From: Halorarum halophilum | GTDB taxonomy: Archaea; Halobacteriota; Halobacteria; Halobacteriales; Haloferacaceae | Assembly: GCF_013401515.1 (NCBI RefSeq) | Contig: NZ_CP058529.1 | Location: 1,798,001 to 1,862,000 of the forward strand | Direction of reading: 5' to 3' | DNA: 64,000 nt | Part shown: one piece after another, positions 31,729-62,365 of the stretch | Position numbering within the stretch: position 1 is the first letter of the stretch | Layout of the letters: each line of letters begins with the position of its first letter | The notes under the pieces: generated by a model | What the model was told of the DNA's origin: nothing | The model's database searches: none | What the model saw: only the letters and a program-made list of their open reading frames with translations | Position numbers and translations under genes: made by a program

Positions 31729-33657
31729 TTAGTCGTCAGCCGGTGCGGTACCGCTCCCGCCGCTGCTGACGCCCGTGCCGGGGCCGAGGTCGATGCCGAG
31801 GTCGTCGAGCTTCTCGTCCGGGACGACGCCGTCGACCCAGCCGCGGTGCTCGTAGTACTCCTCCTTCATCTCAGGGAGCTCGCAGTACTCGCCCTCGCTG
31901 GCGCCCTGGCCGGGGATGCCGTCCTCGAGGAAGCGCTCGGGCAGCGAGTCGTCGGCGCCGTCGAAGCCGACGAGGTTGTTGTAGTAGCGCTCCAGGTTGT
32001 AGATGCGCTCGCCCGCCTCGATGAGCTCGTCCTCGGTCACGTCGAGGCCGGTCATGCCGTTGTACTGGAGCACGTACTCCTCGATCCCCTCCGCGAAGGC
32101 GTTGAACTTGCAGATGTCGAAGCTGTCCGACACCGCGTGGAGGTCCTGGAACGCGGCCGCGAGTTCGCCCTTCCCCTGCCACTCGTACGGGTCGACCTTC
32201 TGCGGGATGCCGAGGATCTCGGCGGCCGGCGTGTACGCCCGCAGGTGGCAGGCGCCGCGGTTCGAGGTCGCGTAGCCGATGCCCATCCCCTTCATGCAGC
32301 GCGGGTCGTACGCCGGGATGGTCTGGCCCTTGACCGCCAGCGAATTGTCGGCGGCGTGGAAGTTCTCGACGAGGCCGTTCGAGCCCTCCGCGAGCGCGTC
32401 CGCGAGGTCGCCGTCGCGGTTCGCGATGTCCTCGATGAGGTCGATCATCGTCTCGGAGTCGCCCCAGTCGAGCCCCTCGCCGAGCTCGTCCAGCTTGCCC
32501 TCCTCGGTCATCTCCATCGCCATCGCCATCATGTTCCCCGTCTCGATGGTGTCGAGGCCCATGTCGTTGCACCGCTGGATCATGAGGGCGATCTCGTCGC
32601 GGTCGGTGTGTCCGGAGTTCGGGCCGAGCGCGAACGCCGACTCGTACTCGTAGGACTCCGTGCGGACGTTCATGTCCTCGCCCTTGTGGGTCACGTCCAC
32701 CTCGACCTCCTTCTTGCAGGCGACCGGGCAGGAGTGACACGTCGGCTCGTCGACGAGGATGTTCTCGCGGACGTTCTCGCCGGAGACGCGCTCGGCGTCG
32801 ATGTCGACGCCCGAGTGGTCGCCGTACGAGCCCGTGGAGGTGTACTTCCCGTTCTTCGTCGGGAGGCCGTCCATCTCCTCGGTGATGTTCATCAGGACGT
32901 TCGTCCCGTACAGCGAGAGGCCGCCCTCGTTCGGCCCGGTGACGTCGGACTCGCGGATGACCTCCATCGCCTGCTGGTACCCCTCCTGGAACGTCTCGGG
33001 GTCCGCCGGCTTGGGCATCTTCGTACCCGACTTCACGACGACCGCCTTCAGGTTCTTGTTCCCCATCACGCAGCCGGTGCCGCCCCGGCCGGACGCGCGG
33101 TCGTCCTCGTTGACGATGCAGGCGTACTTCACCTCGTTCTCACCACCCGGTCCGATGGCCATCACGGAGAGGTTCTTCCCGACCGAGCCGTCGACCTCAT
33201 CGCCGAGTTCCTCGATCGTGTCGTGAACGCCGTAGCCCCAGATGTGCCGGGCGTCGCGCAGTTCCACTTCGCCGTCCTCCACGACGGCGTACACGGGGTG
33301 CTCGCTCTGCCCCTCGAACACGAGGCCGTCGAAGCCGGCCCACTTCAGCCGGGCGCCGGACCAGCCACCGTGGTGGCTGTCCGTGACGGTGTTAGTGAGC
33401 GGCGACTTGGTCGTCACCGCGATGCGGCCGCTCATCACGGTCTGGGTGCCGGTGAGCGGGCCGTTCATGAAGCAAAGCCGGTTGTCGGGTCCGAGCGGGT
33501 CCACGTCGGGGCCCGCCTCGAACACGTACTTCACGCCGAGGCCGCGCGCGCCGATGTACTTGCGCGCGTCCTCGTCGTCGATACCGTGGTAGGCCACGTC
33601 GCCGGAGGAGAGGTCGACGTGACCCACGTTGTCCCTGAAGCCGCCGAGATCGGTCAT
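31729..33657 (-). CDS. aor: tungsten-type aldehyde ferredoxin oxidoreductase (AOR)
   Basis: 642 residues from ATG 33657. It oxidises aldehydes to carboxylic acids with a tungsto-bispterin and passes electrons to ferredoxin through one [4Fe-4S] cluster. The cluster ligands are C307, C310 and C314 (EPTCHSCPVACKK) plus C516 (SFDICKFNAF). The pterin motifs GRGGTGCVMGNKNLKAV and IPAYDPRCMKG are intact. Length is a little over the P. furiosus enzyme because of a Gly-rich tail. Its promoter region has a palindrome also seen upstream of the formate dehydrogenase operon. Confidence 0.92.
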   Translation of the reverse strand: MTDLGGFRDNVGHVDLSSGDVAYHGIDDEDARKYIGARGLGVKYVFEAGPDVDPLGPDNRLCFMNGPLTGTQTVMSGRIAVTTKSPLTNTVTDSHHGGWSGARLKWAGFDGLVFEGQSEHPVYAVVEDGEVELRDARHIWGYGVHDTIEELGDEVDGSVGKNLSVMAIGPGGENEVKYACIVNEDDRASGRGGTGCVMGNKNLKAVVVKSGTKMPKPADPETFQEGYQQAMEVIRESDVTGPNEGGLSLYGTNVLMNITEEMDGLPTKNGKYTSTGSYGDHSGVDIDAERVSGENVRENILVDEPTCHSCPVACKKEVEVDVTHKGEDMNVRTESYEYESAFALGPNSGHTDRDEIALMIQRCNDMGLDTIETGNMMAMAMEMTEEGKLDELGEGLDWGDSETMIDLIEDIANRDGDLADALAEGSNGLVENFHAADNSLAVKGQTIPAYDPRCMKGMGIGYATSNRGACHLRAYTPAAEILGIPQKVDPYEWQGKGELAAAFQDLHAVSDSFDICKFNAFAEGIEEYVLQYNGMTGLDVTEDELIEAGERIYNLERYYNNLVGFDGADDSLPERFLEDGIPGQGASEGEYCELPEMKEEYYEHRGWVDGVVPDEKLDDLGIDLGPGTGVSSGGSGTAPADD

Positions 33658-33733
33658 GGTAACGTACATCCATTAGTAAGGGCTCGAGCGTGTTAGCGGT
33701 TGGCAAAGTAACGTAACCGAAGTTCATTACTGA

Positions 33734-46264: not shown

Positions 46265-47284
46265 CTACCGCTCGGTCTCGCTTCGCCCGCCGTCGGTCGC
46301 CGTGGTCGGCGGCTCCTCGGCCTCCGACTCCAGCTGGCGCTCCCAGCGGACGCGGAGGAGGTTCCCGTACATCTGCAGCACGAGCCCGAGGAACAGCACG
46401 AAGATGCCCGCGTTGATGCCGACCGCGAGCAGGGTGTTCGTCGGGCCGCCGCCGATCACGAGTTCGCGCGGCACCGGGTAGCCCTCGTCGAAGACGCTCG
46501 CGAGCAGCACGGAGACGATGCCGATCACCGTCAGCGCGCCGACGACGGTCGAGGCGGTGTTCCACGACGGTGCGAGTTCGAGCCGTTCGATGCCCGTCCC
46601 GCCGTCCCCGTCGCCCTCCTCGTCGTGGTACTCGGGAATCATCGAGCGCGGGATGAACGCCTTCACCTCGACGGGGTAGAAGGCGGGGTGGAACCCGTGC
46701 TCGAAGATGTGGAACATCACGCCCATCAGCATGATGACCCCGAGCAGCCCGTGGAAGGTGACGAACGCCATCGCGGCGGTCTTGCTCGCCAGCATCCCCA
46801 TAACGCCCGTCTTGGTCCAGATGAGCACGCCGGAGAGGGACAGCAGCGCCAGCTCCACCGAGAAGATGAACACGACGCCCTTCCCGATGTAGGTGAGCAG
46901 GGGGATCTCGTCGGCGGTACCGCCGGCGAACTGGCGGGCGTTCGGGTGCCGCTCGTCCGCGCTCCCGAGCAGGAACTTCACGTCCTGGACCATCGCCTCG
47001 ATATCACCCCGAGTCGGGAGGACCTCCCGGAAGTTCCCCCTCCCGGTTCCGGTCGTGACCATCATGAGCATCCAGAAGACGATGAGCGCGAGCAGCCCCG
47101 CGCCGGCGATCCGATGGACCGCCGCGACGCCGGTGGAGCCGCCCATCAACCCGACGAGCCACCACAGCTCGTCGTTGAACATCATGCTGTAGCCCGAGAA
47201 GAACAGGACGAACACGTCCAGCGCGAGCAGCGTGTGGAACGTGGTCGTCATGCGGGTGAACTTCCCGTGGTCGAGCTGGGTCAT
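46265..47284 (-). CDS. formate dehydrogenase cytochrome b subunit (FdnI-like)
   Basis: 339 residues with about five helices. Haem-ligand His candidates: TTFHTLLALDVF, AAVHRIAGAG, VTFHGLLGVIML and MFHIFEHGFHP. This matches the membrane anchor/quinone-reducing cytochrome b556 of formate dehydrogenase-N. A C-terminal extension adds two more helices. Its ATG overlaps the stop of the preceding membrane subunit (47281-47284). Last gene of the operon. Confidence 0.82.
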   Translation of the reverse strand: MTQLDHGKFTRMTTTFHTLLALDVFVLFFSGYSMMFNDELWWLVGLMGGSTGVAAVHRIAGAGLLALIVFWMLMMVTTGTGRGNFREVLPTRGDIEAMVQDVKFLLGSADERHPNARQFAGGTADEIPLLTYIGKGVVFIFSVELALLSLSGVLIWTKTGVMGMLASKTAAMAFVTFHGLLGVIMLMGVMFHIFEHGFHPAFYPVEVKAFIPRSMIPEYHDEEGDGDGGTGIERLELAPSWNTASTVVGALTVIGIVSVLLASVFDEGYPVPRELVIGGGPTNTLLAVGINAGIFVLFLGLVLQMYGNLLRVRWERQLESEAEEPPTTATDGGRSETER

Positions 47285-47754
47285 CGCTCACCCCCGCCGC
47301 CAGGGGCGGTGTCGTCTCCGGGTCCGTCCCTGCCGGTCCGGCCGTGCCGGTCGTCCGCGTCGCCGGCGACGCTACCGCCGTCGGCCGCGACCGTCTCGTC
47401 GGACTCCCGCGTCGCGCCGGGGGGCCGCATCCGGGCGGCGAGCCGGCGGAACGCTCCCCAGTGGAGGAACACCATGAACAGGATGAACACGCCCATGATG
47501 ACGTCGGCCGCGTGGGTGATCGCGATGGCGAAGTCGAGCCAGACGATCTGGTTCCCGCTCGTCCAGTCGGCGCCGACGCCTGCGTTCGCCCCCGAGACGG
47601 CCGGGTCGATGCGGAAGATCGTCTCGTAGAACGGGCCGAACCCGCTCGCCCACCAGAGGACGACGAGCGTCACCGCGATCGCGATGACCGCGTTCACCGC
47701 GATGGCGACGCTGCTGTACCCGCTCGTCTCCGGCAGGTGCTTGCGGTAGCTCAT
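47281..47754 (-). CDS. additional membrane subunit of the formate dehydrogenase operon
   Basis: 157 residues from ATG 47754. Two helices ('AVIAIAVTLVVLWWASGFG', 'AADVIMGVFILFMVFLHWGAF', second shown in part) joined by an outside loop, with His in the second helix, and a 45-residue polar Asp/Gly tail. Not part of the bacterial FdnGHI set; probably an extra anchor. Overlaps both neighbours by four bases. Confidence 0.65.
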   Translation of the reverse strand: MSYRKHLPETSGYSSVAIAVNAVIAIAVTLVVLWWASGFGPFYETIFRIDPAVSGANAGVGADWTSGNQIVWLDFAIAITHAADVIMGVFILFMVFLHWGAFRRLAARMRPPGATRESDETVAADGGSVAGDADDRHGRTGRDGPGDDTAPGGGGER

Positions 47755-48431
47755 CTCTCGAACTCCCCGGCGTCGTCGCCGAACACGATCTCCATCGCCC
47801 GGTCGTTGAAGAACGGGTCGGTGCCGCGCTTGTCGAGTTCGTCGGCGATCTCCGTCGCGTCGCCCACCAGGAGCGCGTCGGTCGCACACTCCTCGGCGCA
47901 GGCTGGCCCCTTGCCGACGTCCTGGCGCTCCTCGCACATCGTACACTTGTCCATCGTGCCGCCGGTCCCGAACAGCGACGCCGCCCCCTCGTCCTCGGCG
48001 GGGAACTGCGGCGCGCCGAACGGGCAGGCCGACAGGCAGTACTGGCAGCCGACGCAGAGGTCGTCGCGGACCTCGACGAAGCCGTTCTCCTTCTTCACGA
48101 GCGAGTCCACCGGACACACCGACACGCACGGCGCGTTCTCGCAGTGGTAACACTGCATCGGGATGGACGTCTCGCCCGGACTCGCGTTCGCCTGGCCGAG
48201 CGCCCCCGGGCTGTTCCCGTTGAACTCCATGGGGTCGGCCGGCTGTCCCTCCAGCATCGTCGAAATGCTGATGCGCTGTTCGTCGTGGGGCACGTCCCAC
48301 GTGCGCTTGCACGCGACGACGCACCCGCCGCAGTCGATGCAGGCCTCGACGTCGGGGAAGATGCGAGCACCCTCTCCGGTACTCATCACCCCCTGACCCA
48401 TGACCTGGTCGCTGGATTCGTTGGTTGCCAT
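47751..48431 (-). CDS. fdhB: formate dehydrogenase iron-sulfur subunit
   Basis: 226 residues. Four [4Fe-4S] Cys sets are visible: CIDCGGCVVACKR, CYHCENAPCVSVCP, CVGCQYCLSACPFG and CTMCEERQDVGKGPACAEEC. This is the HybA/FdnH-type electron wire between catalytic subunit and cytochrome b. It has no signal peptide, so it is presumably carried across the membrane with the Tat-exported catalytic subunit, whose gene ends two bases upstream. Confidence 0.9.
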   Translation of the reverse strand: MATNESSDQVMGQGVMSTGEGARIFPDVEACIDCGGCVVACKRTWDVPHDEQRISISTMLEGQPADPMEFNGNSPGALGQANASPGETSIPMQCYHCENAPCVSVCPVDSLVKKENGFVEVRDDLCVGCQYCLSACPFGAPQFPAEDEGAASLFGTGGTMDKCTMCEERQDVGKGPACAEECATDALLVGDATEIADELDKRGTDPFFNDRAMEIVFGDDAGEFER

Positions 48432-48433
48432 TG

Positions 48434-51400
48434 TTATTGCACCGTGGAACTACCGGAGTACTTCCGACGGACGTCGAAGTCCTTCTGCTGGCCGATACCG
48501 TTCCGGTCCTGCGGGAACTCGTAGTTGGAGATGTCGACGACCTCGTCTGCGAGGCCGCCCTCGCCGACCGGCTTCATCGACAGCTCGTCGACGACGTCCT
48601 GGGTGGCCTTCTGGACGCGGACCATCGCCGCCTTCGTCTCCTGCATCTGGGTCTCCACGTCGTACCCACGCGAGGTGATGATGTTCACCGAGTCGCCGAT
48701 GGCGTGGGGAACCAGCCCGTCGGGGTACTTCTCCTCGAGCGACCGGCCGCGGAGCAGACCGCCCCAGTGGAACGGCAGGAACGTCTCCTGGGGGTTCGGC
48801 CGGTGGGTGACCCGCGCCTTCACGAGCACCGACCCCCGGTCGGTCGTCGAGACGACGACGAGGTCGCCGCCCACGACGTCGAGTTCCTCGGCCATCTCCG
48901 GGTGGATCTCGGCGTACATGTGCGGCTGGAGGTCGGCCGTGTAGATGTTCGAGCGCGTCTCCGCGCCGCCTCCCTGGTGTTCGACCTGGCGTCCGGTCGT
49001 CATGATCGTCCAGCGCTTGTCGTTCCCGTCCGCTCCGAGGCCCTTGTCGACGAGGCTCTGCATCGCCCGCTGCTGGACCGCCGCGTTGTTCTGGTTCAGG
49101 CGGTAGAAGTTGGTCTGTTCGCCGTTGGCCGGCCAGTCCTGGACGAGGTCCGGCCGCGGGCTCTCGATCGGTTCGCGGTGGACGGGCGTCGTATCGATGA
49201 AGTTCCAGGTGACCGCCCGCGCCCGCCCGCGCCCCGTCGGCGCGTCCGGTTGCTTGTAGTCGTACTGCTGGTAGAACTCCTCGTCGAAGCCGGAGTCGTA
49301 CCGCTGGTTCATCGCGACGGCCGTGTCGTACACCGACTTGTCCGCGCGGAGCGCGTACTCGTACGGGATCGTGAGCGCGTCCGGGTTCGTCGGGTCCTCC
49401 GGCAGCGTCGTCGAGAAGCCGGGGTACTGCGGAACCCCGCGTATCGGTCCTTGACCGTTCCACCAGTCGGGGTTGTACGGGGCCCTGAGCAGGTTCATGC
49501 CCTCCTGACCCTGCTCGTCGAACGTCTTCTGCATCGGGTACTCCTTGCCGGAGGTGTCCATCTGCTCCCACTGGGACGGGTTCGGCGCCTCGATGCCCCA
49601 GCGGGCGCGGAAGTCCTGCCCGCCCTCGCGCGGGTCGAGGTCGTCGTTCCAGATGATGGGCGTCCCCGGGTGACCCTCTCCCCAGCAGGGCCACGGGAGC
49701 ATCCAGTACTCGCCGTCGACCGGCGAGCCCGGCAAATCGGCTTTCAGGTCCTCCTTCGAGAACGCGTGGTCGTACTCGAGGTGTTGCTGGAGGCGCTCTG
49801 GGTCCTGACAGTAGCCGATCGTCCGGACACCGAGGTTCACCTCGCGGAGACACTGCTCGTACGTCGTCTTCCCGTTGTACAGCTCCGAGCCCGATCCCCA
49901 GTCGAAGTGGTCGCCGAAGCCGAGGCTGTCGGCCAGTTCCTGCATGATCTGCAGGTCCGGCTTCGAGTTGTGGCTCGGCGGACGAACCGGCTCGGACCAC
50001 TGGACGGCGCGGTGGGAGTTCGTCAGCGACCGCGGGTGCTCGTACTGGCTCGACGCCGGGAGCAGGATGAGTTCCGTGTCGTCCAGGTCGGGGAGCACCG
50101 AGGCGACCGACGGGAACACGTCGACGACGACGATGAGGTCGAGGTTCTCCATCGCCTCCTTCATCTTCTCCATCTCGGAGATGGAGTTCACCGAGTGTCC
50201 CCAGATGAACGCCGCCTTCAGCCGGTTCGGCTGGTACAGCGGCGTCTTGTTCAGCCGCCGCTCCTGCGGGAGCGCGGCCTCGAACCACCGCGCGACGCTG
50301 AGCCCGATCTGGAACATCATCGAGCGCGGACTCGGGCGCTCGCTGTCGGCCGCATCCCCGCTATCGCTGTAGTCGACGTACGCCCCCGCCTGATCGTACA
50401 GGTCCTGCGGGAGCTCCCCGTACTGCTGGTACAGGTCGTCGAACGTGACCGACCCGGACGTGAACGGGCTCTTGTCCCACACGTCCGCCCAGTACTCCCA
50501 GGAGCCGGGCGAGGACACCGAGTAGTAGCCGGGCAGGATGTGGCTCGCGACCGCGAGGTCGGTCGCCCCCTGGACGTTCGCGTGCCCGCGCATCACCTGG
50601 AGGCCGCCGCCCGAGCGCGCCGCGCTCCCGGACGCCAGCGAGGTGAGCGCGTACGAGCGGATGTTCTGGGTCCCGTTGTTGTGCTGGGTCCCGCCCATCG
50701 CCCACTCGATCTGTATCTGGGGCTTGTTCTCGATGATGAGGTCGCCCAGTTCCCGGAGCTCCTCCACCGACAGCCAGGTGATGTCCGACACCGTCTCCAG
50801 GTCGTACTGCTCGAGGTCGTCCTCGACGTCGGGCCAGCCCTGGACCCGGTTCCCCAGCATGTCATCGTCCAGTTCTCCCTGGTCACGGAGGTACCGGATG
50901 AGCCCCATCATCAGGGCGACGTCCGTCCCCGGTCGGAGCCGGTAGAAGTAGTCGGCGTGGGCCGCCGTCTTCGTGTACCGCGGGTCCACGACGACGATGG
51001 TCCCGCCGCGTTTCTGCCCCTCGAGGATGTGCTGCATCGCGATGGGATGGGCCTCGGCGGGGTTCTGCCCGATTATCAGGTCCATGTTGAAGTTCCGATA
51101 ATCGTTGATGGTGTTCGTCATCGCCCCGTATCCCCACGTGTTCGCGAGGCCCGCGACCGTCGTCGAGTGACAGATACGCGCCTGGTGGTCGCAGTTGTTC
51201 GTCCCGTAGAACGACGCGAGCTTCCGGAACGCGTACGCCTCCTCGTTGGAGTGGTGCGCGCTCCCGAGCCACATCGTGCCGTCGGCGCCCACCTCCTCCT
51301 TGATGCGGAGGAGCTCGTCCGAGATGGTGCTGTACGCCCGATCCCACGAGATCTTCGTCCAGCCGTCCCCGGTCTTCCGGAGCGGGTGTTTCAGCCGCTT

Positions 51401-51718
51401 CTCGGAGTGTTCGCTGCCGTAGATCGCTGCGCCCTTCGAGCAGAGCGAGCCGTTGTTCACCGGGTGTTCCTCCCACGATTCCTGCCCGACGAACGCGTTG
51501 CCGCGCCGCTCGCCGTGGAATCCGCAACCCACCGCACAGAAGTTGCAGATGGTCTTCGTGAGCTCCGTGTGGTCCGTGTCGGAGCCGTCGGTCTCACCTT
51601 CGTCCTGCGCGAGCGCTTGCCCGGCGCCGCCGCCGCCGAGCGCCACCGCCCCCGCCAGCGCGCTCGCCTTCAGGAACGACCGCCTGTCCAGGTCGAGTGA
51701 TGCTGGTTCCGTGCTCAT
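48434..51718 (-). CDS. fdhA: formate dehydrogenase catalytic subunit, FdnG-type, Cys in place of Sec
   Basis: 1094 residues. A Tat signal (DRRSFLKASALAGAVALG) at residues 11-28 sends it outside. The [4Fe-4S] cluster is held by C58, C61, C65 and C93. The metal ligand region reads NCDHQARICHSTTVAGL: C183 followed by the catalytic His, at the position of Sec in E. coli FdnG. 'GGLQVMRGHANVQGATDLAVASHILPGYYSV' (shown in part) is specific to the FdnG line. The long C-terminal half carries the pterin-binding 'HFHWGGLL'-type segment (PFHWGGLLRG). It oxidises formate and starts a four-gene operon. Confidence 0.9.
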   Translation of the reverse strand: MSTEPASLDLDRRSFLKASALAGAVALGGGGAGQALAQDEGETDGSDTDHTELTKTICNFCAVGCGFHGERRGNAFVGQESWEEHPVNNGSLCSKGAAIYGSEHSEKRLKHPLRKTGDGWTKISWDRAYSTISDELLRIKEEVGADGTMWLGSAHHSNEEAYAFRKLASFYGTNNCDHQARICHSTTVAGLANTWGYGAMTNTINDYRNFNMDLIIGQNPAEAHPIAMQHILEGQKRGGTIVVVDPRYTKTAAHADYFYRLRPGTDVALMMGLIRYLRDQGELDDDMLGNRVQGWPDVEDDLEQYDLETVSDITWLSVEELRELGDLIIENKPQIQIEWAMGGTQHNNGTQNIRSYALTSLASGSAARSGGGLQVMRGHANVQGATDLAVASHILPGYYSVSSPGSWEYWADVWDKSPFTSGSVTFDDLYQQYGELPQDLYDQAGAYVDYSDSGDAADSERPSPRSMMFQIGLSVARWFEAALPQERRLNKTPLYQPNRLKAAFIWGHSVNSISEMEKMKEAMENLDLIVVVDVFPSVASVLPDLDDTELILLPASSQYEHPRSLTNSHRAVQWSEPVRPPSHNSKPDLQIMQELADSLGFGDHFDWGSGSELYNGKTTYEQCLREVNLGVRTIGYCQDPERLQQHLEYDHAFSKEDLKADLPGSPVDGEYWMLPWPCWGEGHPGTPIIWNDDLDPREGGQDFRARWGIEAPNPSQWEQMDTSGKEYPMQKTFDEQGQEGMNLLRAPYNPDWWNGQGPIRGVPQYPGFSTTLPEDPTNPDALTIPYEYALRADKSVYDTAVAMNQRYDSGFDEEFYQQYDYKQPDAPTGRGRARAVTWNFIDTTPVHREPIESPRPDLVQDWPANGEQTNFYRLNQNNAAVQQRAMQSLVDKGLGADGNDKRWTIMTTGRQVEHQGGGAETRSNIYTADLQPHMYAEIHPEMAEELDVVGGDLVVVSTTDRGSVLVKARVTHRPNPQETFLPFHWGGLLRGRSLEEKYPDGLVPHAIGDSVNIITSRGYDVETQMQETKAAMVRVQKATQDVVDELSMKPVGEGGLADEVVDISNYEFPQDRNGIGQQKDFDVRRKYSGSSTVQ

Positions 51719-51927: not shown

Positions 51928-54045
51928 ATGAACGTCGGGGCATTCGTCTGTTCGTGCGGCGGCACCTGCGACGTGGACCTCGAGGCGGTCCGCGACGGGG
52001 TCCGCGACGTGGAGGTGGTCGCGTCCTCGGAGACGCTGTGCCGGGACGCGCTTCCCGCCGTCGACGGGCTCATCGACGAGTACGAGCTCGACCAGCTCGT
52101 CGTCGGCGCGTGCGACGACGGCTGCCGGGCGCGCTTCGACGACCTCGTCGCCGAGAAGGGGTTGCATCCCGACGCGGCCGCGTTCGTCGACCACCGGGAG
52201 GAGGCGGGCTGGGTCCACTCCGAACCCGAGGCGACCGACAAGACGGCCCGCCTGGTCAACGCCCGACGGACCGGCCTCGAGTACGAGGCGCCGACGCGCT
52301 CCGTGTCGCGGGAGGCCGGCGAGTCGGTGGTGGTAGTCGGCGACGCGGGGACGGCCGCCGCGCTCGCCGACACCGCGGACGTCACCCTCGTCGCGGACGG
52401 GGCCGAGTACGCCGACGTCGACGCGGACCTCTCGGACGTGGAGATCGAACGGGGCCGGTTCGTCGACGTCGAGGGCGCCTTCGGGGAGTTCGAGGTCACG
52501 CTCGTGGCCCGCGTCACCGAGGACTGCATCTCCTGCATGAAGTGCGTCCGGGAGGGCCCGGACGGCATGGTGACGCGCCGTCCGGTGGACGTCCACCCCG
52601 ACGCGCCCGACGGCGGGTGGACCGACTGCTGTCCGACCGACGCCATCGACCTCTCCGGGGTCGAGCGCAGTATCGATGCCGACCAGGTGATCCACCCCGC
52701 CGGGACGGACTCGGCCAGGGGGGGCCGCGTCGGCTACTACACCGGCCCCGTCGACGGGGCCACGATCGCGGCCGTGGAGTCCCTGCTCGGCGGCGTCGAG
52801 AAGCCGCGGTTCCTCGACCTGGAGATGGACGTCTGTGCGGCCGGCGAGTCGAGCCAGCAGGGGTGTACCGCCTGCGTCGACGCCTGCCCGCACGGCGCGG
52901 TCGACCGACCCGCCGTGGACGAGGTCGAGTTCGACCTCGTCGCGTGTCAGAACTGCGGGGCGTGCACGTCCTCGTGTCCGACCGGCGCGACCAAACTCGC
53001 CGAACCGTCGAACGAACGGCTCGCCCGCGAGGTCGAGGCGCTCCTGGACGCGGAGACCGACGAGGGCGGCTGGCTGTTCGACCGCGGTGGCGACGGGATC
53101 GAGACGCCCGTCGTCGCGTTCGTCTGCTCGGAGTCGGCCGCCGAGGCGCTCCGGGCGTACGGCCGCCGGGCCGCCTCCGGGGAGGAGTTCTCCTACGCGC
53201 CCATCCTCCCCGTCCGCGTGAACTGCACGGACACGGTGGGGGAGGCGCACGCGATGCACGCGCTCGCGGCCGGCGCCGACGGCGTCGCGGTCGTCGGCTG
53301 CGGCGACGCGTGTCTCCACTCCGGCCCTGACCCGAAGGCGGAACTCGTCGAGCGACTGAACCGTGCCACGACCGACCTCGGACTCGGGGAGCGCCTCGCC
53401 TTCCTCGCGCCGGACCCGGGCGACCCGGACGGCTTCGCGGCCGAACTCGACGCGTTCGTCTCGGGGCTCGACGCGACCCCGATTCCGGAGGGCGAGCACC
53501 GCTCGACCGGCGTGATTCGGGCCGACAAGCCCAACCCCGAGTTCAACAGCCACGACTGGACGCTGGAGTCGGTTCGGCGCATCGTCGAGTTCGCCAAACC
53601 GGAGCGCGAGGTGATCCGCGGGCTGAAGGACTTCGGCCTGATGGACGTGACCGACGCGTGCAACCTCACGCCGACGTGCTCGACGCTGTGTCCGACGGAC
53701 GCCATCCGGCGGACCGACGACGGCGACCTCCAGTTCGCCCACGAGGACTGCGTCAACTGCGGGCTCTGCGAGGAGGGCTGCCCCGAGACGGCCATCACGA
53801 TGTCGACGGGGCTCGACCTCGGCCGGCTCCCGGAGGCGCGCGACGGCGAGCGCTGGGAGACGGTGTACGAGGGCGAGATGCTGGAGTGCGCCCTGTGTGG
53901 CAAACCGTTCACCAGCGCGGCGTCGGCAGAGCACATCCGGGAACAGGTGGGCGACCTCGTCGAGGGCGTCGCCCCCGGTGCCGAGCACAGCATCTTCGAG
54001 TACTGCGGCGACTGCCGTGCGGAACTCGTCTTCGAACACTCATGA
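51928..54045 (+). CDS. multi-cluster iron-sulfur protein with HdrA/MvhD-like segments
   Basis: 705 residues. The N-terminus (FVCSCGGTCD, CDDGCRARF) resembles HdrA-type Cys regions. The middle holds three ferredoxin-like sets (CISCMKC...CCPT; GCTACVDACPHG; CQNCGACTSSCPTG). A MvhD/hydrogenase delta domain follows (RVNCTDTVGEAHAMHALAAGADGVAVVGCGDACLH, shown in part), then another pair (CSTLCPT, CVNCGLCEEGCPE) and a C-terminal zinc-like CALCGKPF...YCGDC. No FAD domain is seen. It is divergent from formate dehydrogenase and coupled to TorD, so it probably handles electrons from formate or helps assembly. Confidence 0.75.
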   Translation: MNVGAFVCSCGGTCDVDLEAVRDGVRDVEVVASSETLCRDALPAVDGLIDEYELDQLVVGACDDGCRARFDDLVAEKGLHPDAAAFVDHREEAGWVHSEPEATDKTARLVNARRTGLEYEAPTRSVSREAGESVVVVGDAGTAAALADTADVTLVADGAEYADVDADLSDVEIERGRFVDVEGAFGEFEVTLVARVTEDCISCMKCVREGPDGMVTRRPVDVHPDAPDGGWTDCCPTDAIDLSGVERSIDADQVIHPAGTDSARGGRVGYYTGPVDGATIAAVESLLGGVEKPRFLDLEMDVCAAGESSQQGCTACVDACPHGAVDRPAVDEVEFDLVACQNCGACTSSCPTGATKLAEPSNERLAREVEALLDAETDEGGWLFDRGGDGIETPVVAFVCSESAAEALRAYGRRAASGEEFSYAPILPVRVNCTDTVGEAHAMHALAAGADGVAVVGCGDACLHSGPDPKAELVERLNRATTDLGLGERLAFLAPDPGDPDGFAAELDAFVSGLDATPIPEGEHRSTGVIRADKPNPEFNSHDWTLESVRRIVEFAKPEREVIRGLKDFGLMDVTDACNLTPTCSTLCPTDAIRRTDDGDLQFAHEDCVNCGLCEEGCPETAITMSTGLDLGRLPEARDGERWETVYEGEMLECALCGKPFTSAASAEHIREQVGDLVEGVAPGAEHSIFEYCGDCRAELVFEHS

Positions 54046-54680
54046 GCACCGACGACACCCAACTCGCGATATACGACGCCCGCATCGAACTCGCCGACTT
54101 CCTCATCGAGGTGTTCCACGACACGCCGTCCGTGGCGTTCGTCGAGCGCCTCGGCTCCGGCGAGGTCGTGACGCCGACCGACCCGGTCAACGACCCGCTC
54201 GACAGGGGGTTCGAACGCATCCGAACGTTCGTGGACGGGATCGAGGGACGCGACCCCGAGACTGTCCGGGAGGAACTGGCGGCCGAGTACAGTCGGATGT
54301 TCGTCGGCCCGCGCCCGCCGGTCCTGCTCCACGAGACGTACTACCGGGACGACACGGACTTCATCGGGGAGGGGCTCGCGCAGGTGGAGGCGAGCTACTC
54401 GGCCGCGGGCTGGACCCCGCCCGAGGAGTACGGCGAGGAGAACGACTTCCTGGCGGTCGAGCTGGCGTTCCTGCGCCACCTCATCGGGCGTCAGCGCGAG
54501 GGCGCCGAGGAGACGTTCGGCTACGAGCGTGTGTTCCTCGACGAGCACCTGCTGACGTGGGGAGACGACGCCGCGGCGGACGTCGAGGCGGAGGCCGACT
54601 CGGATCTGTACCTGGCCGCCGCCGACGTGCTCCTCGGGTTCTGCGAGTTCGAGGACGAACTGGTCGCACAGCTGGTCTGA
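54042..54680 (+). CDS. TorD-family molybdoenzyme chaperone
   Basis: 212 residues, all helical. 'LAAEYSRMFVGPRPPVLLHETYYR' (shown in part) and 'ENDFLAVELAFLRHLIGRQ' match TorD/DmsD chaperones that guard Tat signals of molybdoenzymes during cofactor loading. Its ATG overlaps the stop of the preceding iron-sulfur gene. The client is most likely the neighbouring Tat-exported FdhA. Confidence 0.85.
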   Translation: MSTDDTQLAIYDARIELADFLIEVFHDTPSVAFVERLGSGEVVTPTDPVNDPLDRGFERIRTFVDGIEGRDPETVREELAAEYSRMFVGPRPPVLLHETYYRDDTDFIGEGLAQVEASYSAAGWTPPEEYGEENDFLAVELAFLRHLIGRQREGAEETFGYERVFLDEHLLTWGDDAAADVEAEADSDLYLAAADVLLGFCEFEDELVAQLV

Positions 54681-55620: not shown

Positions 55621-55660
55621 GCGAACCCCTTTTTGCCGCGTACGTCCAGGGTACGAAGTG

Positions 55661-56872
55661 ATGCCGTCGAGACGGAGCCTGCTCGGGAGGCTGTCCGCAG
55701 CGGTGGGGGTAGCCGCCGCGGGCTGTGCGGGGCTCCGGCCGCCGCCGGGGCTTGACCTGCCGGCGAACCCCCACGACGTCCCGCGTCGCCAGTTCGCCCA
55801 GCGGGCGCACCTCCGGGAGGACGCGGACGGGAACCCCCTCGGGACGCGGTTCCGCCGGGTGCTCCTCCTCGACCTCCAGCGGGAGCCATCGGCCGAGGCC
55901 GGACGGACGGTCGAGCGGGCGCTCCGGACGCTGGAAGACGCGTACGACTGGTCGCCGGACGGGCTGTTCCACCTCCTCGCGTGGGGGACGAACTACCTCG
56001 ACGACCACGGCGTGCTGAACCGCGTGCCAACCGACCACCCGACCGTCCTCTCCCGGGTCGACACGCCCGAACTCCTGCGGTTCGACGCAGCGCTGGTGCT
56101 CGAATCCGACGTGCCCTCCCACCTCACGGCGGCCGAGAGCGCGCTTTTCGGCGACCGCGCGGAGCTGAACGGCGTCGCCGTGGACCACCGGCTCTTGGAC
56201 ACCTTCGCCCGGCGCGAACGCCGGACGGGCTTCATCGGCGAAGGGCTCCCTGCTGCTCACGCCGACGCGGAGGGCGTCCCCGCCGACGCGATCCCCGAGG
56301 ACGCGCCGATGTTCACCGGCTTCCAGTCCGGCCGCGAAAAGACGCAGGCGAGCGAGGACCGCGTGACCATCGACGACGGTCCGCTCGAAGGGGGGACGAC
56401 GATGCACCTCAGCCACCTGACGCTGAACCTGAAGCGGTGGTACGCCTTCTCCGAGGCCAGCCGAGTGAAGCGGATGTTCGACCCGGAGACGACGCCCGAC
56501 GACGAGGCCGGGTTCACGGACGACGTGCCGTTCGCGGACAGGGTCGAGGAACACGCGAGCGAACACGGCATGGTCGGTCACCACGAGAAGGTCGCCCGGG
56601 TGCGACGGGACGGCGAGCCGTTGCTCCTGCGTCGCGATTTCAACACCGTAGACGGCGGTCACCCGGGCGTCCACTTCCTCGCCTTCCAGCGGGCCGGGAA
56701 GGACTTCCGGCGGACGCGGAAGTCGATGAACGGCTGGTACCTGCGGGACGACTCGCCGGACATCACCGACAGCGAGAACAACGGCATCCTCGACGTGATC
56801 AGGGTCCGCTCGCGGGCGAACTTCGTCGTCCCGCCGCGGGAGAAACGCGCCTTCCCGCTCACCGTGACGTAG
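55661..56872 (+). CDS. Tat lipoprotein resembling DyP-type peroxidases
   Basis: 403 residues from ATG 55661. Tat/lipobox N-terminus: SRRSLLGRLSAAVGVAAAGCAG. The C-terminal segment 'LLRRDFNTVDGGHPGVHFLAFQRAGKDFRRTRKSMN' (shown in part) and the preceding 'EEHASEHGMVGHHEKVARVRR' recall the proximal-His and RR region of dye-decolorising haem peroxidases. The distal GxxDG motif is not intact (nearest is GFQSG). I think this is a haloarchaeal peroxidase-like family, exported and lipid-anchored, with activity uncertain. Confidence 0.6.
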   Translation: MPSRRSLLGRLSAAVGVAAAGCAGLRPPPGLDLPANPHDVPRRQFAQRAHLREDADGNPLGTRFRRVLLLDLQREPSAEAGRTVERALRTLEDAYDWSPDGLFHLLAWGTNYLDDHGVLNRVPTDHPTVLSRVDTPELLRFDAALVLESDVPSHLTAAESALFGDRAELNGVAVDHRLLDTFARRERRTGFIGEGLPAAHADAEGVPADAIPEDAPMFTGFQSGREKTQASEDRVTIDDGPLEGGTTMHLSHLTLNLKRWYAFSEASRVKRMFDPETTPDDEAGFTDDVPFADRVEEHASEHGMVGHHEKVARVRRDGEPLLLRRDFNTVDGGHPGVHFLAFQRAGKDFRRTRKSMNGWYLRDDSPDITDSENNGILDVIRVRSRANFVVPPREKRAFPLTVT

Positions 56873-57226: not shown

Positions 57227-57571
57227 CTACTCGGGCGGCGCGTTCGACGGCCGCTGGGTGTCCCCCTCGAGGAACACCGACGCGAACAGGTCCACGTGGA
57301 GCGCGAGCAGCTTCTCGGGGGGAAGGCCCGCGGCGTCGGACTGCTCGGCGAGGAACGCGTCGAGGTCGTCGCTCGGTGCGAACCGAACCCGTTCGCCGTC
57401 TTCCTCCAGTTCGAAGGTCACCTCCGTGGCGCCCGAGATGAGGTGCTCGATCTCCAGGAGGGCCTGCTCGACTTTCACCTCCAGCGCCTCCTCGTCCTCC
57501 ATCAGACGCTGGTCCGCCCACTCGCCCGCGGCCGCCGCCAGCCGGTCGCTCACGGGGAACGAGATGGCCAT
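57227..57571 (-). CDS. haloarchaeal protein of unknown function, zinc-ribbon operon
   Basis: 114 residues, helical and acidic ('QALLEIEHLISGATEVTFEL', 'SDDLDAFLAEQSDAAGLPPE'). The ATG overlaps the stop of the zinc-ribbon gene upstream. No family recognised. Confidence 0.6.
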   Translation of the reverse strand: MAISFPVSDRLAAAAGEWADQRLMEDEEALEVKVEQALLEIEHLISGATEVTFELEEDGERVRFAPSDDLDAFLAEQSDAAGLPPEKLLALHVDLFASVFLEGDTQRPSNAPPE

Positions 57572-58129: not shown

Positions 58130-58891
58130 TCACTCCTCCGAGAGCGACCAACCGGCGTCAGCGGCCGCGTCGGCCAGCGGGACGAACTCCCAGCCGGCGG
58201 CCTCTGCCCAGGCCCGTTCGCCCGCCGACTCGACGCCGACGAGCACCATCCGCTCCGCGTAGAACATCGAGTGCTCGTCAATCTCCGCGAGCCGCTCCCC
58301 GGGGCCGGTCCCGGTGCCGTTGAAGAAGTCGAGGTCGAGCCGGTTGTCCCGCTGGTACTTGTTGATGCGGTGGGCGTCTACGTCGCCGACGATGCCGACC
58401 CAGTCGGTCCACGTCTCGGCGTCCGCGAGGGCGGCGTGGAGGTTCTCCAGCCGTCGGATGGCCTCGTACGAGATGGCCATCGTCATCTCGTCTGCCCCGC
58501 CGCCGTGGGGACCCGAGGCCTCGGGCTGCTGCTGTGTCTCCTCCTCGCGTTCGTCCGCCGGGACGCCCCCCGCGCCGCCCGACTCCATCGGGATACCGAC
58601 CGGCTTGTCGTCGTTCGCGTACGGCACTCTCGGTGTCGCGGTGTCGGTGGAGGGGCCGGTGTCGACCGAACCCGCGTCCGCACCTCCGTCAGCGTTCCGG
58701 TCGGTACCGTCGGCCGGGTCCGAGGACTGCTCGGCCGAGGTCGCCCAGTCGTCGGTGGACGAGGACGCCGACGCCGACTCGACCCAGTCGTCGTCGCCGT
58801 CGTTCCGCCAGAACCAGTCGCCCCGGTTCGGCGTCTCCTCCTCGTTCTCGGTTGGCGCGTCCAGTTCGTCGAGGTCGATTCGGTCGGTCAT
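58130..58891 (-). CDS. haloarchaeal protein with disordered acidic N-terminus
   Basis: 253 residues. Residues 1-130 are low-complexity Asp/Ser/Gly, likely disordered. Residues 135-250 form an alpha/beta domain ('TMAISYEAIRRLENLHAALA', 'VGDVDAHRINKYQRDN', 'MVLVGVESAGERAWAEAAGW') that I believe is a conserved haloarchaeal domain without assigned function. It is followed on the same strand by the second AOR-family gene. Confidence 0.65.
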   Translation of the reverse strand: MTDRIDLDELDAPTENEEETPNRGDWFWRNDGDDDWVESASASSSTDDWATSAEQSSDPADGTDRNADGGADAGSVDTGPSTDTATPRVPYANDDKPVGIPMESGGAGGVPADEREEETQQQPEASGPHGGGADEMTMAISYEAIRRLENLHAALADAETWTDWVGIVGDVDAHRINKYQRDNRLDLDFFNGTGTGPGERLAEIDEHSMFYAERMVLVGVESAGERAWAEAAGWEFVPLADAAADAGWSLSEE

Positions 58892-58930: not shown

Positions 58931-60697
58931 TCAGTCATCGGTGTCCACGCGTGTGCGGTCGGCGGTCGCGGGGAGCGCGTCGGTCGGCAGGTCGAGTCGA
59001 CCGCAGGTCTCCCGCGTCGGGAGGCCGTCGGCGTCCCAGCCGCGGGCGTCGTAGTAGGCGTCGAGCAGGCGCCCGAACGCCGCAGGGTCGACAGCGCGAC
59101 CGGCGGCCGGGGTGTCACCCTCGGGGAGCGACTCGTCGAACCACTCCGGGAGCGCGTCGTCCGCTCGGTCGAACCCCTCGCGGGCGTTGAACAGGCGGAC
59201 GAGCGTCCAGACCCGCTCCCCGACCGTCGAGAGGTCGTCGTGCGGGACGCCCAGCGCGTCGAGCCACTCGGCGCCGCGGTCGGCCCACAGCGTCTCGCCG
59301 GCGAAGTCGTCGACGACGAGACTCCAGAGGACCGACCGGGCGTTCTGCGCCCCCACGACCGCTCGAACGCGGTCGGCGGCGGTGGCGTCCTCGCGGAACA
59401 CCTCCTCCTCGATGGGTCGCGCCCGGCGGTGACAGCCGCCGCGGTCCGACGTCGCGTACGCGAGCGCCATCCCGAGCGCGCCGCGCGGGTCGTACGCCGG
59501 GAGTTCCATCGACTTCACGGTCGGCACGTAGTCGTCGCCGCCGTACCGGACCGCGGCCGCGTCCACGCCGTCAGCCAGGGCGTCCGCGAGGTCGCCCTCC
59601 CGCCGGGCGATGCGCTCGATGAGCATCCTGGCGGCGTCCTCGTCGCCGAAGCCGAAGTCGACCTCGCCGGTTCTGACCGCCCAGGCGACGGCGTTGCCGG
59701 CGGTGATGACGTCGACGCCGAGCCGGTCGCACGCGCCGCCGAGCGCCGCGACGGCGTCGAAGTCGTCAAGACCCAGCCCCGCGCCGAGGGTCATCGGCGC
59801 CGCGCCGCGCGGGACCGTCTCGCCATCGTCGGTCTCGACGCGGAAGCCGCCCGGGACTGCCGCCTCCGGGTTCTCCCGACCCACGGCGGCCTCGGTCGCT
59901 GCCTCGATGCCGATGTCGTCCACCTCGTCCGCCTGTTCGCGCCAGCCGTGTGCCGGCAACACGCCGACCTCGGCGGCGAAGTCGACCGACTCCAGGGTCT
60001 CGCCGGCCGCCTGCCACCGGCCGGTGTCGTCGTCGCCGAACGCGGCGGCGTCCCGCTCGTGGAGGTCCGCCAGCGCGTCTGGGACCTCGGGCGGGTCGCC
60101 GCGGGCGACGACCGCCTTCAGGTTCTTCGACCCCATGACGGCGCCCGCGCCGCCCCGGCCGGCGTGGTGCTCGCCGCCGTCGGAGGCAATCGTCGCGAAC
60201 GCGACCGCCGCCTCACCCGCGGGGCCGACGCAGGCGACCGCGGCGTCCGGGTACGCCGCCGCTGTCTCGACGGTGTCGGCGCCCGCGACGTCCGCCGCCG
60301 ATTCGAGACGGGGGTCGCCGTCGCCGACGACGAGCGCCGTGGGCTCGGCGGCCTCGCCCTCGACGATCACGCCGAGGCAGTCCGGGAGCGAGCCGGCGAG
60401 GCGGTCGGGGAACGTCCCGCCGGAGTAGGAGTCGAGGAACGCGCCCGTCAGCGGCGACTTCGTCACCGCGGCGTAGCGCGACTCGCCGGGGAGATAACCC
60501 GACAGCGGCCCGAGAAGGAAACAGAGCAGGTTCTCGGGACCGAGCGGGTCCGTCCCCGCCGGGAGCTCCTCGTATAGGTAGCGCGCGCCGAGTCCCTTCC
60601 CGCCGACGTAGCGACGACGCCACGCCTCGGGAACCGTCTCGAATCGGACTTCGCCCGCGGTGAGGTCCACCCGAAGGACCCGCGTGCGTCCATCCAT
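58931..60697 (-). CDS. AOR-family protein lacking the iron-sulfur cluster ligands
   Basis: 588 residues from ATG 60697. AOR folds and pterin motifs are kept: GRGGAGAVMGSKNLKAV, LPAYDPRGALGMALAYATSDRGGCH. But the CxxCxxxC segment of true AORs (CHSCPVAC in the homologue at 31729-33657) is replaced by ENPEAAVPGGFRVE, and the fourth Cys region is NARSVLWSLVV. None of the six remaining Cys has cluster spacing. It could still bind W/Mo-pterin but not pass electrons by the usual route. mobA is divergent next to it. Confidence 0.85.
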   Translation of the reverse strand: MDGRTRVLRVDLTAGEVRFETVPEAWRRRYVGGKGLGARYLYEELPAGTDPLGPENLLCFLLGPLSGYLPGESRYAAVTKSPLTGAFLDSYSGGTFPDRLAGSLPDCLGVIVEGEAAEPTALVVGDGDPRLESAADVAGADTVETAAAYPDAAVACVGPAGEAAVAFATIASDGGEHHAGRGGAGAVMGSKNLKAVVARGDPPEVPDALADLHERDAAAFGDDDTGRWQAAGETLESVDFAAEVGVLPAHGWREQADEVDDIGIEAATEAAVGRENPEAAVPGGFRVETDDGETVPRGAAPMTLGAGLGLDDFDAVAALGGACDRLGVDVITAGNAVAWAVRTGEVDFGFGDEDAARMLIERIARREGDLADALADGVDAAAVRYGGDDYVPTVKSMELPAYDPRGALGMALAYATSDRGGCHRRARPIEEEVFREDATAADRVRAVVGAQNARSVLWSLVVDDFAGETLWADRGAEWLDALGVPHDDLSTVGERVWTLVRLFNAREGFDRADDALPEWFDESLPEGDTPAAGRAVDPAAFGRLLDAYYDARGWDADGLPTRETCGRLDLPTDALPATADRTRVDTDD

Positions 60698-60804: not shown

Positions 60805-61449
60805 ATGGAAGCGGAGGAGCACCACCGCTACGCCGTCGTGATCGCCGGTGGGCGCTCGACCCGGTTCGGCGACCGCGACAAAGCGGTCGCCCCCCTCGCC
60901 GGGACGCCAATGATCCGACGCGTCGCCGACCGCCTCCTCGACGCGACGGACCGCCTCGTGGTTAACTGCCGGCCGGACCAGCGCGACGCCATCGCCAACG
61001 CGCTCGACAGCTACCCGAACCCGGTCCAGTACGCCGAGGACGAGGACCCCGATCTGGGGCCCATGGCCGGCATTCGCACGGGGCTCCGCGGCGTCGAGGG
61101 CTGGGGCGGGCCGGACGCGCTCGCGTTCGTCGTCGCCTGCGACATGCCGTTCGTCGAGCCCTCGCTGGTCGAGTACCTGTTCGACCGCGCGGCCGACCAC
61201 GACGCGGCCGTGCCGCGACTCGACGACGAGTGGTTCCAGACGACCCAGGCGGCCTACCGCGCCGGCCCGATGGCCGACGCCTGCGACGACGCGCTCGCGG
61301 CGGGCGAAGGGAAGATCATCGCGCCGCTGTTCGAACTCGACTACGTCGTGGTCGAGGACGACGAGGCGCTGGAGTACGCCGACGAGTCGACCTTCGAGAA
61401 CATCAACACCGAGGAGGAGTTCGAGGCGGCCGAGAGGCGACTGGGGTGA
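60805..61449 (+). CDS. mobA: molybdenum cofactor guanylyltransferase
   Basis: 214 residues from ATG 60805. The nucleotidyltransferase motif VIAGGRSTRFGDRDKAVAPL and the acidic VACDMPFVEPSLV motif are intact. MobA adds GMP to Mo-molybdopterin to form the bis-MGD used by the formate dehydrogenase type. Divergent from the iron-sulfur-less AOR gene, convergent with yqeC. Confidence 0.92.
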   Translation: MEAEEHHRYAVVIAGGRSTRFGDRDKAVAPLAGTPMIRRVADRLLDATDRLVVNCRPDQRDAIANALDSYPNPVQYAEDEDPDLGPMAGIRTGLRGVEGWGGPDALAFVVACDMPFVEPSLVEYLFDRAADHDAAVPRLDDEWFQTTQAAYRAGPMADACDDALAAGEGKIIAPLFELDYVVVEDDEALEYADESTFENINTEEEFEAAERRLG

Positions 61450-61630: not shown

Positions 61631-62365
61631 CTACCGAATCACGTCCACGACCGTGCCGTCCAGCATCCGCGCCAGAACCACTCGATCGATCCGCCCCGAC
61701 TCGTCCGCCGCCATCGCCGCCTCCGCGACCTCCCGGGCGACTTGCTCGTCCCCCTCGTCGTCCACCTTGTTCACCAGCGGAACCACCGTCGCGCCCTCCG
61801 GGACGCCCTTCAATCCACCCCCGGTCGAGGCGAGCACCGCTCCCACCGCCTCGGCGGTGATCTCCTCGCCCACGTCGATTCCGGTGATGGCGCTGACGCG
61901 CTCGGGCCGGTGCACCACCTCACCGGTCAGCGGTTTCCCGACGGCGTGAACCGACGCGACGGGGATCACGGCGTCCGCGCCGTCGGGAACTTGCGGCTCG
62001 CGGTCGCTCGGCGCCTTGAACTCCCGCATCCGGGCGCCGTCGGCCTTCACGAACACGGGGTCGTCGTGGGCCGCCGCGAGGCCGTCCACGACGTCGCGGT
62101 CGTACCCCCTGTAGCGGTCCGGGCGCTCCTGCTCAGGGACGAGGCCGAGCGGGAAATCCCCGGCGTCGGCGTCCGCGAGCGCCGCGATCGGGTCGTCGGT
62201 CGCCTCGACGCGCGCCACGTGCTCGTCGAAGATGGGGATGCGGACCGTCGCGGTGACGACCGCGCGATCCGTGGCTCCGGCGAGCGCGTACAGCGTGGTC
62301 TTCTTCCCGCCGGCGCCCACGACCGCCACGAGACCGTCGGACGGGAGCGCCTCGGCCGGGGTCAT
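61631..62365 (-). CDS. YqeC-family accessory protein
   Basis: 244 residues. The N-terminal P-loop-like motif VVGAGGKKTTLYALA, 'PVFVKADGARMREFKAP' and 'VIPVASVHAVGKPLTGEVVHRPERV' (shown in part) match YqeC, found in bacteria near selenium-dependent molybdenum hydroxylases. The exact reaction is unknown. The nearby hydantoinase, mobA and AOR genes make a molybdenum-enzyme role plausible. Confidence 0.82.
   Translation of the reverse strand: MTPAEALPSDGLVAVVGAGGKKTTLYALAGATDRAVVTATVRIPIFDEHVARVEATDDPIAALADADAGDFPLGLVPEQERPDRYRGYDRDVVDGLAAAHDDPVFVKADGARMREFKAPSDREPQVPDGADAVIPVASVHAVGKPLTGEVVHRPERVSAITGIDVGEEITAEAVGAVLASTGGGLKGVPEGATVVPLVNKVDDEGDEQVAREVAEAAMAADESGRIDRVVLARMLDGTVVDVIR

Follow-up and report, generated by a model that had tools for sequence, protein, structure and literature searches.

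A haloarchaeal clade of aldehyde ferredoxin oxidoreductase homologues without iron-sulfur ligands is linked to formate dehydrogenase genes

The stretch of DNA analyzed here (the window) comprises 64,000 nucleotides of the Halorarum halophilum contig NZ_CP058529.1. It encodes a protein of the aldehyde ferredoxin oxidoreductase (AOR) family that has no iron-sulfur ligands; we refer to this protein and its orthologues as AORx. The gene lies beside genes for a MobA-like protein and YqeC, about 7 kb from a respiratory formate dehydrogenase (FDH) operon, and the window also encodes a canonical AOR. The relevant features are:

31729-33669, minus strand: canonical AOR with all four Cys ligands, used as reference (alignment)
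46265-47284, minus strand: membrane protein resembling a cytochrome b FDH gamma subunit (family suggested by sequence only)
47281-47754, minus strand: small membrane protein of the FDH operon (sequence; no Pfam family)
47751-48431, minus strand: FDH beta-like 4Fe-4S subunit (closest to NF038355 FDH3_beta, under the cut-off)
48434-51718, minus strand: FDH alpha with TAT signal and RICH (Cys-His) motif (profile and motif)
51928-54045, plus strand: HdrA/FlpD-type Fe-S protein of the FDH cluster
54042-54680, plus strand: NarJ/TorD-type chaperone
55658-56872, plus strand: DUF7405 protein, conserved in the cluster
57227-57571, minus strand: hypothetical protein, conserved in the cluster
58130-58891, minus strand: DUF7124 protein, a conserved neighbour 39 bp downstream of AORx on the same strand
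58931-60697, minus strand: AORx, 588 aa, ATG start, open frame
60805-61449, plus strand: MobA-like nucleotidyltransferase, divergent from AORx, the genome's best MobA-like match
61631-62365, minus strand: YqeC (TIGR03172 equivalog, 167 bits against a cut-off of 73)

The divergent orientation of mobA is as given in a preliminary description of this DNA. The MobA-like protein matched PF12804 with 121 bits, and its best equivalog, TIGR02665, scored 90 bits, below the cut-off of 152. In many genomes the DUF7124 gene is immediately downstream of AORx, and it is a likely operon partner.

Both AFOR domains span the full AORx protein with Pfam scores far above the cut-offs (AFOR_N, PF02730, 210 bits, E 4e-62; AFOR_C, PF01314, 268 bits, E 2e-79), and a sequence search of the PDB retrieved P. 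furiosus (Pf) AOR (1aor, E 1e-73) and other AORs over the full length. Family profiles matched AFOR families only, with no match in AORx to the FdhD-NarQ sequence family. An AF2 model of AORx built from 20 haloarchaeal orthologues (pLDDT 67.5, pTM 0.72) had AOR-family structures as its only significant Foldseek matches (E 3e-28 to 9mqx and 3e-26 to 1aor), with TM-scores of 0.77-0.80 against 9mqx, 1aor and 1b25. Prediction was poor for residues 228-304, where the cluster loop used to be, so the pocket cannot be judged from the model.

We assigned ligand positions by aligning AORx with 1aor, the reference AOR and the three further AORs of the same genome. The reference has two possible start methionines, four codons apart; with the earlier start, the ligands that the preliminary description numbered C307, C310, C314 and C516 become C311, C314, C318 and C520, which are the same cysteines. 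The central claim of that description, that all four Fe-S ligands are lost, was confirmed: Pf C288, C291, C295 and C494 align with AORx E278, V281, F285 and D463. Other cysteines acting as ligands could be ruled out, since none of the six in AORx (59, 107, 156, 323, 422 and 565) falls at a ligand position. The altered and retained segments, all on the minus strand, are:

60110-60160: residues 180-196, the cofactor-binding motif GRGGAGAVMGSKNLKAV, retained (sequence, alignment)
59831-59878: residues 274-289, GRENPEAAVPGGFRVE in place of the CxxCxxxC ligand loop (alignment)
59801-59812: residues 296-299, PRGA in place of PEYE (Pf E311 to R297; E313 to A299)
59480-59500: residues 400-406, PAYDPRG retained (Y427 and R430 of Pf AOR; alignment)
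59303-59326: residues 458-465, WSLVVDDF in place of DSxGLCxF (fourth Cys ligand to D463; pterin-motif Asp to W458)

None of the four [4Fe-4S] cysteines is present in any of 58 aligned AORx orthologues, and all four are present in each of the 40 other AORs aligned (35 canonical and five sister sequences), so that the cluster-less form, which had been put forward as a possible conserved clade, is indeed one in haloarchaea. The agreement of the 58 orthologues and the open frame rule out a misalignment or frameshift artefact. The catalytic Glu (Pf E313) is replaced by Ala, Ser or Gly in all 58, and its neighbour Pf E311 is likewise gone throughout. The active-site His (Pf H448, AORx H423) is retained in every orthologue, and H423, Y402 (Pf Y427) and T234 (Pf T243) are invariant in AORx. 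Altogether, AORx retains 57 of the 69 residues conserved across canonical AORs, including H448, Y427, T243 and R76 (Pf), the DPRG sequence and the domain-1 motif GRGGxGAVMG(S/A)K; the 12 that were lost are the four Cys, Pf E311, E313 and D489, and positions 104, 177, 264, 442 and 443 in AORx numbering. The claim that the pterin motifs remain therefore stands in part: GRGGAGAVMGSKNLKA and PAYDPRG are present as described and the first pterin motif, DxxG(L/V)D, is kept as (D/N)xLGxD, but the second, DxxGLC, has become WSLVxD(D) or WxLxxD, with loss of the pterin Asp (Pf D489; the assignment of 1aor residues to particular pterins is in part our assumption). Residues fixed specifically in AORx are a W, an R and a DD (R297-G298, W458, D463-D464). 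Across 20 AORx orthologues C156, C323 and C422 are invariant. A Cys-based sulfurtransferase was considered and ruled out, as AORx has no conserved Cys specific to it and the YqeC of the window has no Cys at all.

AORx shares both AFOR domains, about 32% full-length identity and the same predicted fold with the AOR/WOR family (1aor, FOR 1b25, CaAFOR 9g7j, AmWOR 9mqx and BamB 4z3w), the TM-scores of 0.77-0.80 being to aldehyde-oxidising members, and it differs from them in the missing [4Fe-4S] ligands, catalytic Glu and second pterin motif. In a 2026 classification of more than 4,000 WORs, cofactor and cluster ligands vary very little, and Class I is defined by the [4Fe-4S] cluster (PMC13328260). 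Among the Class I features, AORx has the His and the first DxxGL(C/D) motif and lacks the four Cys ligands, the catalytic Glu and the second DxxGL(C/D) motif. Sequence and fold thus place it in the AOR protein family, yet it does not have the defining features of an aldehyde:ferredoxin oxidoreductase. Published WOR mechanisms all rely on the conserved Glu and His (PMC12727526); since the Glu is lost, AORx is unlikely to oxidise aldehydes in the standard way and is probably no longer an aldehyde oxidase.

In a maximum-likelihood tree, 30 thinned AORx sequences formed a single clade (100/100). A haloarchaeal group that has the Cys (L120-L123) is sister to it and comprises the AORs closest to AORx, at 42-47% identity; next comes L124, from another class of the phylum. 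The sister AORs, Natrialba magadii NMAG_RS18645 and L124 keep all four Cys and both Glu, unlike AORx; in common with it they have Tyr in place of Pf N93 and an aromatic residue in place of Pf D489, indicating that these two changes predate the loss of the Cys. The Cys-bearing sister clade marks the point where the ligands were lost, and the alignment and tree indicate a joint loss of the Cys, E311 and E313 on the branch leading to AORx. Members of this sister clade (NC_013923.1 262470-264329; L120-L123) are found on haloarchaeal plasmids amid amino-acid/agmatine catabolic genes. Between close AORx orthologues dN/dS was 0.07-0.27, which rules out a pseudogene; AORx is under purifying selection and is not an isolated decay product. 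It occurs in roughly half of 391 haloarchaeal genomes, an approximate figure because split genes and members of the sister clade both occur among the matches between E 1e-105 and 1e-155, and no member was found outside Halobacteria in 295 genomes sampled across the phylum. A profile search confirmed its absence from all 40 genomes of an AORx-negative panel, with no match above 340 bits (true members score at least 820), so false negatives in this panel could be ruled out.

We called FDH genes with TIGR01591 and motif checks, because PF00384 failed to distinguish FDH from enzymes of the nitrate-reductase type. In a panel of 40 AORx-positive genomes, picked before FDH came into view, an FDH alpha gene lay within 20 kb of AORx in 25, where a simple binomial estimate (six DMSOR-family matches per 4 Mb) gives about 2.4 (p 5e-21, a guide only, as related genomes are not independent). 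A search for related loci placed FDH or FDH-accessory genes within 6 kb of AORx in 17 of 20 other species. TIGR01591 identified an FDH in all 40 AORx-positive genomes if the TAT type, which scores under the cut-off, is included; for one of them (G352) the call is based on the gene present at its AORx locus. The linked FDHs retain the active-site Cys-His and fall into three architectures, with varying gene orders: a TAT-FDH, a NuoG-fused FDH with a NuoF-like subunit, and an FDH of about 700 aa. The order yqeC-mobA-AORx-hypothetical-FDH-NuoF was found on a Haladaptatus salinisoli plasmid, and AORx-NuoF-fdhF-glyA on annotated plasmids of two Haloterrigena. Haladaptatus salinisoli has two AORx genes, one beside a NuoF-type FDH and the other in a TAT-FDH/TorD cluster; that each copy has a different FDH type as its neighbour looks like system-specific pairing. 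No FDH, mobA or yqeC was found near the Cys-bearing sister AORs (L120-L123 and NMAG_RS18645).

Three AORx loci with NAD-type FDH (NZ_CP069192.1 171787-189475, NC_013745.1 339688-357379 and NZ_CP095488.1 155564-173234) also carry genes for a BCCT transporter, a Rieske dioxygenase, an FAD oxidoreductase, GlyA or folate metabolism, suggesting a cluster for C1 oxidation from betaine demethylation. Two small conserved families with no Pfam match (about 90 aa, L066:9557-9829; about 187 aa, L084:7620-8174) are encoded beside FDH. A gene for an FDH-like protein of about 760 aa occurs in six genomes that have no YqeC (G014, G026, G121, G228, G249 and G316), adjoined in at least five of them by a second DMSOR-family gene; it is a different FDH-like system.

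YqeC was present in 40/40 AORx-positive and 17/40 AORx-negative genomes (Fisher 3e-9). This protein is a known selenium/Mo-hydroxylase marker; in haloarchaea it tracks FDH and mobA. A xanthine-dehydrogenase-type enzyme as the client of MobA and YqeC was rejected, as this genome has no PF20256 match. Genes for mobA and yqeC flank FDH in AORx-negative genomes too, and about 16 FDH-positive genomes have MobA and YqeC without AORx. Genomes with AORx thus always had FDH and YqeC, whereas FDH also occurs without AORx, so AORx is not universally required for it. FDH scored above the family cut-off in 59 of the 80 panel genomes. FdhD is the usual cofactor chaperone and sulfurtransferase of FDH, and FDH activity in E. 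coli depends on it. It was detected in none of the 80 haloarchaeal genomes with PF02634 and in none of 391 with TIGR00129, searches that a very divergent FdhD may escape and that were positive in 8 of 14 control genomes, archaea included.

We propose, at about even probability, that AORx is a redox-dead AOR scaffold that binds the cofactor and serves in the maturation of haloarchaeal FDHs, as a carrier, loader or chaperone. AORx would bind a Mo/W-pterin cofactor in MPT or MGD form, made with the help of MobA, and would hand it to FDH or protect it, for which no electron path is needed; R297-G298, W458 and D463-D464 may serve binding or docking instead of redox and substrate roles. The direction of transfer is putative, as is a contact of AORx with MobA or FDH. 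The loss of the Cys, E311 and E313 from all 58 orthologues while other cofactor-site residues are kept supports this proposal, and monophyly, selection, FDH linkage, co-occurrence with YqeC and the undetected FdhD favour it; that the linked FDHs keep Cys-His and that the Cys-bearing sister AORs lie away from FDH count for a role in FDH. The preliminary description, whose interpretation is partly supported overall, had already raised a cofactor carrier, the idea that fits best after the present analysis. The main evidence for it is additional to that description: an FDH operon at a distance of 7 kb, the neighbouring yqeC, an FdhD that seems to be missing and a catalytic Glu that has been lost. 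Against maturation count the loss of the Asp of the second pterin motif and the FDH-positive genomes that manage without AORx. Furthermore, known AORs carry bis-MPT and FDH needs bis-MGD, which also counts against it, MGD binding by an AOR fold being putative.

In a more specific form, AORx would replace FdhD, loading a Mo/W-bis-pterin into the FDHs of Halobacteria together with MobA and YqeC, which we regard as tentative and somewhat unlikely. FdhD and FdsC resemble AORx in this proposed role, cofactor binding for FDH maturation, and have no sequence relationship to it. Binding of bis-MGD defines the FdhD-like chaperones, in which the CXXC is dispensable and not conserved (PMC6239281), so a Cys-poor cofactor binder is plausible as a functional analogue of FdhD.

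The main rival to maturation is a re-purposed C1 redox enzyme, in which AORx would keep a W/Mo-bis-pterin, act on a C1 or other substrate and pass electrons directly to a partner in formate/folate C1 metabolism. The folate and C1 genes at some loci (FolD in L041; formate-THF ligase) mean that the link might be to C1 metabolism instead of maturation, and betaine-type catabolic genes adjoining FDH, formaldehyde dehydrogenase genes in short-FDH loci and the invariant H423, Y402 and T234 point the same way. However, E311, the catalytic Glu and the whole cluster loop are gone in all 58 orthologues, respiratory TAT-FDH loci, including that of the window, have no folate genes, and we saw no conserved electron-transfer partner besides FDH; we consider such an enzyme unlikely. 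AORx could otherwise support the FDH complex structurally or regulate it, as a docking subunit or a sensor of pterin or metal status, and the close, often divergent AORx and FDH genes (0.3-0.5 kb apart; G257, G029 and G272) and the fixed W, R and DD would suit such a role. Its pairing with three FDH types argues against a fixed subunit, however, and AORx also travels with mobA and yqeC away from FDH (G098, G051, G055 and G182), making this improbable. A general cofactor store or neutral relic with no specific role in FDH would explain why some FDH-positive genomes lack AORx, but is very unlikely given purifying selection, the new residues fixed across the clade and the strong FDH linkage.

The DMSO-reductase-family enzymes DorA and BisC are cluster-less and exchange electrons directly with a partner protein. 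They are analogous to AORx in the loss of an Fe-S cluster from a bis-pterin enzyme, but they have another fold and keep their catalytic machinery. A search of the openly accessible literature turned up neither a description of a cluster-less AOR clade nor one of its link to FDH. Genes of the AORx type are labelled aldehyde ferredoxin oxidoreductases in public records, and our findings caution against that label. With no FdhD detected, AORx, MobA and YqeC are concrete candidates for supplying haloarchaeal FDHs with their cofactor, and with a sulfido ligand if there is one. If the proposed maturation role is true, AORx would be a case of a tungsten oxidoreductase that has come to handle a cofactor without redox function and, to our knowledge, the first maturation protein derived from a tungsten enzyme.
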